Source: Aureimonas ureilytica DSM 18598 = NBRC 106430 (GTDB lineage Bacteria > Pseudomonadota > Alphaproteobacteria > Rhizobiales > Rhizobiaceae). From it: 64,000 bases of DNA. Numbering within the stretch: the stretch's first letter is position 1; the number at the start of each line of letters is the position of its first letter. A program made the translations under genes and the position numbers. The stretch spans positions 372,001 to 436,000 of the forward strand of contig NZ_ARQE01000003.1 of assembly GCF_000382705.1 (NCBI RefSeq), given 5' to 3'. The notes under the pieces are model-generated. The model searched no databases. It was not told the origin of the DNA and was given only the letters and a program-made list of their open reading frames with translations. Below are positions 599 through 4,010 of the stretch, piece after piece.

Positions 599-746
599 GG
601 CGGTTTCTTAACATTCGATGAACGGGATCATGGCTACGCCATGCGCAGACTGCACAACTGGCGTGCAGCTTTTGCTCTCCTAACAGGCAGGTCCGAGGCG
701 TATATCAGCGTCAACAAACGAACCAAACCAGACGGACCCAAAGACA

Positions 747-893
747 ATGATCTCCGAGATCGCCACCCGCCTCCGCAGCCTTCGTTCGCACCGCCGCACG
801 GTTGCCGAACTGTCCCGCATGGACGACCGCATGCTGAGCGACATCGGCGTGCTGCGTGGCGACATCGAGCGCATGGTTCGCGTCGGCCGCTAA
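747..893 (+). CDS. DUF1127 (YjiS-like) small protein
   Basis: A 48-residue protein with an Arg-rich amphipathic N-terminus and the DUF1127 core (MDDRMLSDIGVLRGDIERMV) at residues 25-44. Short DUF1127 proteins are common in alphaproteobacteria; some act as RNA-binding regulators of phosphate or stress responses, but no role can be assigned to this one. It stands alone, 148 bp after nudC, and is followed closely by a strong hairpin terminator, as expected for a small monocistronic gene. It is short enough to be missed by length filters. Confidence 0.85.
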   Translation: MISEIATRLRSLRSHRRTVAELSRMDDRMLSDIGVLRGDIERMVRVGR

Positions 894-935
894 GCGCCGC
901 GCAACATTTGCCGGGCTTCTCCCGCCCGGCCGACG

Positions 936-962
936 AAAAAGCCCCGCCGAGCGGGGCTTTTT
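936..962. terminator. Bidirectional intrinsic terminator
   Basis: A-tract, then GCCCCGC / GCGGGGC stem with a short GA-containing loop, then TTTTT. It lies 43 bp after the DUF1127 stop and faces the end of the leftward kdsB-pheA gene, so it can serve both strands. Confidence 0.85.
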
Positions 963-1073
963 GCTGTTTGGGGCATGCTCAGAGCGCGAGGCTCAGGCAG
1001 GCCTGAACGAAAAAAGGGCGGCCGAGCCGCCCCTATGCCTCGTTTCCGCCCATGGCCTGCCGGCCGCCCCTCC

Positions 1074-2678
1074 TCACTCGCCGATGGCGGGCGCGGGAAT
1101 TTCCGGCCGGTTGGCGGCGGCGGGATAGACGCCGAGAATGGCGAGGCGCTTGGAGAAGAAGGCCAGTTCCTCCAGCGCATGGGCGACGCCGACATCCTCC
1201 GGGTGCCCCTCGATATCGGCATAGAACTGCGTCGCCACGAACTTGCCTTCCAGCTGGTAGCTTTCGAGCTTGGTCATGTTGACGCCATTGGTGGCGAAGC
1301 CGCCGAGCGCCTTGTAGAGCGCCGCCGCGACGTTGCGCACCTCGAACACGAAGGTCGTCACCACGCGCTGGCCGCTATTGGCCGCCCAGAGCGCCTTGCC
1401 GCCCGCCTTGCGCGTCAGCACCACGAAGCGCGTGGCGTTGTGCTCGGCATCCTCGACATTCTCGGCGAGAATCTCGAGCCCGTAGAGCTCGGCCGCCAGA
1501 CGCGGCGCGAGGGCCGCGACGTCGCGCTCCTTCATTTCCGAGATGATGCGCGCCGCGCCCGCCGTGTCGCCCGACACGACCGGCCTCCAGCCGTTGCGCC
1601 GGATGATGCCGCGACACTGGCCGAGCGCGTGGACATGGCTGTGCACCTCGCGAATATCGGCGAGCGCCGTGCCGGGCTTGGCCATGAGCTGGAAGCGGAT
1701 CGGCAGGAAGAACTCGCCGACGATATGCAGGCCCGAGCGGGGCAGGAGGTGGTGAACATCCGCCACGCGGCCCGCCAGCGTGTTCTCGATCGGGATCATG
1801 GCGAGATCGGCCGCGCCGTTCTGCACGGCGGCGAAAGCGTCCTCGAAGCTCGGGCAGGGCAAGGGCGTCAGGTCGGGATACATGGCCTGGCAGGCCATGT
1901 CGGAATTGGCGCCGCGCTCGCCCTGGAAGGCGATGCGCCCGGTGCGCTCCGGCGACAGATAGGCGCGGCGCGCTTCCTCCAGCTGATAGGCCGTGTCGAC
2001 GCCGAGCGGCACGGCGTCGACGATCTCGGCGTCGATCCGCATGCCCGCTTCCAGCGCGCGCAGCTGCTCCAAGCGCTCGCGCACTTCCAAAGGCGAGGGC
2101 TTCAGCGTGACGAAGCGCTCCAGCGCGGCGCGGCGATAGGCGTAGATGCCGACATGATGAAACAGCGGCCCCTCGCCCGTCGGCGCGGTGGCGCGCGTGA
2201 AATAGAGCGCGTTGAGCCGACGCTCGGCGATCGGCGTGCCGATGAGCTTCACGACATTGGGGTCGCCGGCATCGGCGACGTTGCCGATCTCCACCACCAC
2301 GGTCGCGATGTCGCAGGCCGGGTCCGCGAAGGGCTTCAGGACGGCGCGCACCGTGTCCGGCTCGATCGTCGGCAGGTCGCCCTGGAGATTGACGATCGTG
2401 TCGACCTCGCCCTGCGGGTCGATCCGCTGCAGCGCCTCGAAGATGCGGTCGGAGCCGGACGGGTGGTCGCTGCGCGTCATCACCGCCTCGAAGCCCGCGC
2501 CTTCCACGGCGGCGAGCACCTCGGCGCTGTCGGTCGCGACCACGACGCGGCCGATTCCCGCGTCGCGGGCGCGCTCGGCCACGCGCACGATCATCGGCGC
2601 GCCGCCGATGTCGGCGAGCGGCTTGTTGGGCAGGCGCGTCGAGGCGAGACGGGCGGGAATGAGGACGAGTGTGGTCAT
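1074..2678 (-). CDS. kdsB-pheA: KdsB-PheA fusion: CMP-Kdo synthetase joined to prephenate dehydratase
   Basis: One 534-residue reading frame holds two complete enzymes. Residues 1-241 are 3-deoxy-manno-octulosonate cytidylyltransferase, which activates Kdo for lipid A core synthesis: [15 protein letters not shown] at 7-21, NLQGDLP at 97-103, and GVDT at 226-229. From about residue 248 ([14 protein letters not shown]) it is prephenate dehydratase, which makes phenylpyruvate: the NATRF catalytic motif at 414-418 and a C-terminal ACT domain (about 438-520, MTKLES) for Phe feedback. The junction is [18 protein letters not shown], with no stop codon and no nearby ATG. In rhizobia kdsB and pheA are usually separate neighbours, so this looks like an in-frame fusion or a lost stop. 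The ATG at 2676-2678 fits the KdsB N-terminus. Confidence 0.9.
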
Positions 2679-3083
2679 GGGTGACGATCCGGGCCGGAAA
2701 AGCACGAAATCTCCCGCGAAACGCGCGAGATAACGCGATGCTGTGACAGGTGGGCGCTTGATCCATTCCGGGGGGAATGTCAGAACGCTTCCAGACTTTG
2801 CGTGCCCTTGGAAAGCGGGGAGCGGAAGCCGGCGCGGGGGAGACCGCGCGGCGGACCTTCCCCGATTTCGAAGAGCACGCGTGAGGGGGCTTACAGGGGG
2901 TGCCGCATCCCGGCAACAGCCTCCGAGCGTCGCGAAGAGAAAGGGCTTGGCTTTTCCCTTCGAAACGCAAGAGATTTCGAGTGGCCGAAGCCATCCGCCG
3001 GAGCGACCGGAGGAGGGCCGAGGCATCCAAGACGTCGTGTTCGCCGGTCGCCGGGCCGGTTGGAGAGGGAGCCGCCCAGCAAC
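2679..3083. promoter_or_regulatory. Divergent intergenic region between kdsB-pheA and cytochrome c gene
   Basis: About 405 bp separates two divergent starts, so it should hold both promoters. No convincing -35/-10 pair stands out. A short dyad (AAGGG, about 10 nt, CCCTT) lies near 2940-2962. The leader of the cytochrome gene ends in a purine-rich GAGAGGGAG before its ATG. No coding sequence is supported here. Confidence 0.4.
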
Positions 3084-4010
3084 ATGGATTCATTCGAGGC
3101 CAACAAGATCTTCGGCGCCGTTCTGGGCTCCGTGTTCGTTCTGTTCGGCGGCAGCCTTCTGGCCGAAGCCATCTTCCATTCCGAAGCGCCCGAGAAGCCG
3201 GGCTTCGCGATCACCGCCGCCGAGCCTGCGGCGGGCGGCGCGGCGGCTCCGGCCGCCAACGAGGTGACGCCGGTCGGCCAGATCATGCAGACCGCCAGCG
3301 CGGAAAACGGCGCGGCGATCTTCAAGCGCTGCCAGGCCTGCCATTCCGGCGAGAAGGGCGGCCCCAACAAGGTCGGCCCCGATCTGTGGGACATCGTGAA
3401 CCGGCCGATCGCCTCGCACGAGGGCTTCTCCTATTCCGCCGCGATGACCGAGTTCTCGCAGGGCAAGACCGTGGTCTGGGACTGGGATCACCTGAACCAC
3501 TTCCTCCACGGCCCCAAGCAGTACATCAAGGGCACGGCCATGGGCTTTGCCGGCATCGCCAAGGACCAGGAGCGCGCCGACCTCCTGGCCTATCTCGGAA
3601 CGCTGTCCGACAACCCGCCCGCCCCTCCCGCGCCCGACGCCGGCGCGAGCGAAGCGGCGGCTCCGGCCGAGGGTGCGGCGCCCGCCGCCGGCGACGCGGC
3701 CGCCCCCGCGCAGACCAACCCGGCCACCACCACCAACACCGGCACGCTCGGCTCGGACACGGTGACGCAGCCCCAGAGCGGCGGCACGACCGACGCCACC
3801 ACGGGCGCGACGCCGACCACCCCGCCGTCCGGCGCGGTGCCCACGACGGGCGACAACGCGACCTCGGCTCCGCCGCAGGCGCCGAGCCCGGCCGAGGCGC
3901 AGAACCCCGGCGCGGCTCCGGCGGCTCCGGCCCCGGCAGCGCCCGCTCCGGATGCGGCGACGCCGGCGGCACCCGCCCCCGCAGCCCCTGCGCCCGCTCC
4001 GGCCCAGTAA
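3084..4010 (+). CDS. Membrane-anchored c-type cytochrome (CycM-like) with long Ala/Pro tail
   Basis: A 308-residue electron carrier. The N-terminus has one hydrophobic anchor (about residues 9-28) without an obvious cleavage site. The class I cytochrome c domain follows, with haem motif CQACH near residue 84 and a probable Met ligand in KGTAMGFAG. The match is to CycM/cytochrome c552 proteins that pass electrons from the bc1 complex to aa3 oxidase in rhizobia. Those are about 180-190 residues; this one adds about 120 residues rich in Ala, Pro, Thr and Gly, probably a flexible periplasmic or cell-wall-spanning tail. ATG at 3084 follows GAGAGGGAG. It is divergent from kdsB-pheA, the arrangement known from rhizobia. 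Confidence 0.85.

Follow-up and report, generated by a model that had tools for sequence, protein, structure and literature searches.

Chorismate mutase-prephenate dehydratase (AroQ-PheA) joins PheA to the enzyme that acts just before it in its own pathway. The gene described here likewise joins PheA to another enzyme, but the partner, KdsB, comes from Kdo activation, a different pathway. PheA-enzyme fusions are known and fusions have been proposed as clade markers (PMC1173090). Fusions of a nucleotidyltransferase with Ppm, whose genes are close neighbours in many unfused cases, occur in phosphonate synthesis (PMC6697681); there too a nucleotidyltransferase domain is joined to another enzyme, although both partners act in one pathway. 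Among unfused proteins, stand-alone KdsB (NF003948; 3k8d) has the same whole domain, key residues and fold, but in the fused protein the C-terminus of KdsB continues into PheA. Stand-alone alphaproteobacterial PheA (NF008866; 6vh5) has the same PDT domain and regulatory region, whereas the fused PheA has no start of its own and the joint forms its N-terminus. GqqA (7alz, 7am0) has a PheA-like fold in common with our protein (53% identity in the Foldseek match), but it is stand-alone and its entry title is that of a quorum-quenching acylase. We found no description of a KdsB-PheA fusion in the open-access library searched.

The window (i.e. the whole stretch of 64,000 nucleotides that was analysed) contained one open minus-strand frame from 2678 to 1074 that matched the equivalog models of both enzymes, in agreement with the preliminary description, which had read KdsB and PheA as a single polypeptide of 534 aa. 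The locus comprised the following features:

1077-2678, minus strand: fused kdsB-pheA coding sequence (534 aa; start ATG 2678, stop TGA 1074-1076)
1959-2678, minus strand: KdsB module (CMP-Kdo synthetase), residues 1-240 (NCBIfam NF003948, Pfam PF02348, AlphaFold model compared with 3k8d)
1938-1958, minus strand: joint, residues 241-247, between KdsB helix 230-240 and PheA strand 248-252 (AlphaFold secondary structure)
1407-1934, minus strand: PheA catalytic (PDT) domain, residues 249-424 (Pfam PF00800, 2.4e-58)
1116-1367, minus strand: PheA C-terminal regulatory (ACT-like) region, residues ~438-521 (alignment to Brucella PheA 6vh5)
1014-1034, minus strand: possible transcription terminator 3' of the fused gene (from a consensus scan only)

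The KdsB half passed the cut-off of the NF003948 equivalog model over residues 1-240 (391 bits, cut-off 281) and matched model positions 4-243 of 248, leaving about 5 C-terminal positions unmatched, and the Pfam domain CTP_transf_3 (PF02348) was assigned to residues 5-215 of the 534-aa fused protein. The PheA half passed the cut-off of NF008866 over residues 245-525 (461 bits, cut-off 359), with model positions 4-280 of 283 matched and 3 N-terminal positions unmatched. Judging from these matches, each half is whole as a domain, with only a few end residues apparently lost; the earlier claim that both halves are complete holds for the domains but not for those few end positions of the two models. 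The short linker that had also been described corresponded to the ~7 residues that separate the final helix of KdsB from the initial strand of PheA. The C-terminal region of PheA aligned through to the phenylalanine-bound 6vh5, while the Pfam ACT model gave no match at E 0.001; the feedback ACT domain of the preliminary description has its support in the 6vh5 alignment. Upstream of ATG 2678 the frame stays open (650 aa from 3026), and the KdsB match starts at ATG 2678. In the window's own genome, 23 candidates were scored and the fused gene alone matched at E <= 0.001. The terminator consensus scan of positions 600-3300 found 3 sites, against 1.8 expected. The divergent neighbour (2802-4010, plus strand) reads like a membrane-anchored cytochrome c with a CQACH motif and a long Pro/Ala-rich tail.

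We searched for the same junction in related genomes and detected the continuous kdsB-pheA frame in 21 out of the 21 sampled Aureimonas genomes. The fused proteins of the 20 further genomes, which belong to other species, were 69-92% identical to the window protein, and the A. ureilytica NS365 protein was 91% identical to it. The fusion first seen in this genome is thus real, but it is common to the whole sampled genus and not private to one genome. Two Aureimonas genomes (G396 and G159) had a stop inside the genome match; it sits at the C-terminus (525 and 528 aa) and not at the joint. Since these two are fused, a stop count alone is uninformative on fusion.

The scan of public genome contigs gave a similar picture: among the best 80 of 578 loci, which were those analysed, the 9 named Aureimonas loci were all fused and the 71 others all carried separate but adjacent genes. 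Our samples outside the genus comprised 907 genomes (386 of the same family, 284 of the same order and 237 of the same class), 30 of them without any match, and no fusion was found among the matches listed for them. Among those listed matches, both halves were matched in one frame in 126 genomes (73 of the family, 39 of the order and 14 of the class), and all 126 had a stop at the joint itself; two of the 73 family matches end near residue 470. The remaining listed matches corresponded to separate KdsB or PheA, or were partial (G356, G592). The lists were limited by score and may therefore have passed over a weak case. Adjacency of kdsB and pheA is widespread in Alphaproteobacteria, and the fusion is seen in Aureimonas alone among the matches listed.

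The layout before fusion can be read from L133, a record with separate genes and with KdsB and PheA pieces identical to those of the Aurantimonadaceae record L059. In L133, 18 codons, all in one frame, separate the equivalents of A236 and I249: 5 of KdsB, the stop, 5 intergenic and 7 of PheA. The same interval comprised 12 residues in 20 of the 21 fused species and 13 in the other (L086), so the joint of the fused gene is ~6 codons shorter than its L133 equivalent, and kdsB has lost its stop and pheA its start. An origin from adjacent kdsB and pheA genes, as previously suggested, agrees with the separate neighbours of the relatives and the single frame throughout Aureimonas. The suggested loss of an intergenic stop was borne out as far as the stop is concerned, but the event was more than that, because the pheA start was lost as well and the joint is shortened. 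Comparison of these sequences indicates that one small in-frame deletion would suffice, and a stop loss followed by shrinkage would fit equally. The best trees required two changes for the fused rows, because L123 and L124 are set off from the others by a long branch, close to L059/L133, whose genes are separate; constraining all 21 fused rows to one clade was not rejected (AU p 0.465). Besides a single origin, the fusion may possibly have had two origins, or may have been lost.

We then compared the key residues of both halves. R15, K19, QGD 99-101, LEQLR 203-207 and GVD 226-228, which we take to be KdsB substrate/metal-site residues, were present in all 21 fused rows and all 31 KdsB rows; neighbouring motif positions vary (S13 in 20 of the 21 and N18 in 3 of the 21 fused rows). 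The N-x-T-R-F motif of PheA (N414, T416, R417, F418), which presumably includes the catalytic Thr, was found in 21/21 fused and 30/30 PheA rows, and E298, N299 and KLESY 470-474 were invariant in the 21 fused rows, with other PheA motif positions varying (A375 in 19/21, A415 in 3/21). Since both active sites are kept, the fused protein most likely serves both lipopolysaccharide synthesis, by activating Kdo, and phenylalanine synthesis, by dehydrating prephenate, and we infer that the two activities reside on one intact chain.

Selective constraint was calculated as pN/pS over the 71 species pairs, out of 210, whose identity exceeded 78%. The ratio was 0.76 at the joint (residues 237-246), compared with 0.28 in KdsB, 0.17 in the PDT domain and 0.15 in the ACT region; values near that of the joint were found elsewhere in loop 425-437 (0.71) and in the C tail (0.61). 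Among 525 ten-codon segments, the highest pN was at residue 238, and the segment at 237 ranked sixth. The joint was therefore the most variable part in sequence, and its length was nearly constant (the same in 20/21 fused species). By these ratios, purifying selection is acting on both halves of the fused protein.

We consider it probable that the gene is a vertically inherited kdsB-pheA fusion with a bifunctional product, kept because it is hard to undo and not because it couples pathways. Most likely it is a chance product of gene adjacency, not a new type of enzyme. The kdsB stop and the adjacent pheA start would have been lost in frame in the Aureimonas ancestor, after which one ribosome would make KdsB and PheA as one chain, with each half acting like its stand-alone counterparts. 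The gene could be split again only by gaining a stop and a pheA start simultaneously, as a stop alone would cost the cell PheA; the fusion would persist mainly because both are needed at once, which amounts to a neutral reason for its persistence. Read so, the locus would be a clean natural case of adjacent genes from unrelated pathways that became one protein and were kept through a genus, and a caution for Rosetta-stone inference, as a fused pair need not share function. The fusion also provides a simple genomic marker for Aureimonas, and it permits a direct test of neutral persistence against added regulation.

One chain is the simplest reading of the fused gene. It is unlikely, in our assessment, that separate proteins are also or exclusively made, through a PheA start inside kdsB (e.g. 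Met213, Val223) or through cleavage at the joint. Such products would be consistent with the weakly constrained sequence of the joint, with the in-frame start codons (one or more per gene) that all 21 fused genes have in the 20 codons before residue 237, and with the strong Shine-Dalgarno score (-6 or better) of ATG 213 in 6 of them. However, there is no single conserved start, as ATG 213 is CTG in 4 of the 21 fused genes, and it is commoner in separate loci (97 out of 100) than in fused ones (17 out of 21). Moreover, 7 of the 21, including the window, have no start with a score of -4.4 or better between residues 201 and 248, and a start codon between residues 237 and 248 occurs in only one (ATG 241, L113). 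The Shine-Dalgarno scores, which are weak overall, were compared with those of 94 stand-alone pheA loci, which include some duplicates and for which the best start within 25 codons was taken, and of 1294 control codons inside kdsB. ATG 213 of the window scored -3.3, equal to the median of stand-alone pheA starts and to the score of the window's kdsB start, and the control codons had a median of -2.7; since real starts barely differ from control codons, these scores are a poor guide to internal initiation. Downstream of the joint, in-frame ATGs occur only from residue 261 on, beyond the first PheA strand. A conserved internal PheA start was sought and none was found in the 21 fused genes; a start particular to a single species may exist.

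A further reading holds that the fusion couples the two pathways, with phenylalanine at the PheA end altering the activity or assembly of KdsB; we regard this as quite improbable. The fusion is present in the whole sampled genus, and the joint is short and of near-constant length, so the halves stay close to each other. The AlphaFold model, which was built from 82 rows (21 fused, 31 KdsB and 30 PheA), predicted both halves well (mean pLDDT 89, pTM 0.66). Foldseek matched its KdsB half to E. coli KdsB 3k8d (E 2.9e-27) and its PheA half to Brucella PheA 6vh5 (68% identity), the closest solved PheA, which was solved with phenylalanine bound and in that respect favours coupling. A sequence search found 22 solved sequences, of which none spanned both halves. 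Against coupling, the model, judging by its pTM, does not appear to fix how the two halves are placed relative to each other, and the difficulty of reversal would explain persistence without any benefit. We know of no metabolite common to the KdsB and PheA reactions, which also counts against it. In addition, each gene is replaceable alone in relatives. In G052 (L162, L164) PheA adjoins the cytochrome c gene without an intervening KdsB, and another contig encodes a different KdsB (40% identity); the usual kdsB seems to have been lost, with the other KdsB serving instead. In G032 (L161, L163) KdsB is of the usual type, and PheA is distant (32% identity), encoded on another contig and below the equivalog cut-offs. 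Such independent replacement counts against the two having to work jointly. The more specific proposal, in which lipopolysaccharide synthesis tracks the phenylalanine state because the KdsB end responds to phenylalanine bound at the end with PheA, or because the oligomers, once joined, assemble in a new way, is very doubtful; if true, it would link outer-membrane building to amino-acid supply in Aureimonas.

The neutral bifunctional fusion also has to be set against the idea that one half has decayed and is now a mere tail on the other, which is hardly credible given the purifying selection on both halves, the key residues of both that are kept in all 21 fused rows, and the lack of any other match in the window's genome; nothing was found in its favour. 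A second match was found in 6 of the 21 Aureimonas genomes and was weak in five of them, covering part of KdsB. The second match of the sixth, the fused species G397 (L165), is a stand-alone KdsB between kdsA-like and arabinose-5-phosphate isomerase-like genes, and this second kdsB perhaps serves a capsule. Finally, that the genes are two normal ones whose intervening stop or frameshift is concealed by a sequencing or assembly error, as the separate kdsB and pheA of relatives outside Aureimonas might suggest, is refuted by the other Aureimonas genomes, since a frame continuous in 21 out of 21, 20 of them from other species and as little as 69% identical, excludes both chance and such an error for practical purposes.

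Some records outside Aureimonas showed peculiarities of their own. In L074 (Rhizobium sp. G21, 2998-3759) the KdsB match ends at residue 198 and PheA lies in another frame, possibly owing to a frameshift in the record. The kdsB-pheA junction of L055, a record titled Bacillus subtilis SK6B4, was nearly identical to that of Pseudochrobactrum (L056) in the compared stretch, and the assembly is probably mislabelled or contaminated. The PheA matches of several genera of the same family (L138, L141, L142, L144 and L146) were ~930-950 bases long for ~280-290 query residues; from these lengths, their PheA seems to carry an insert of ~30 residues.
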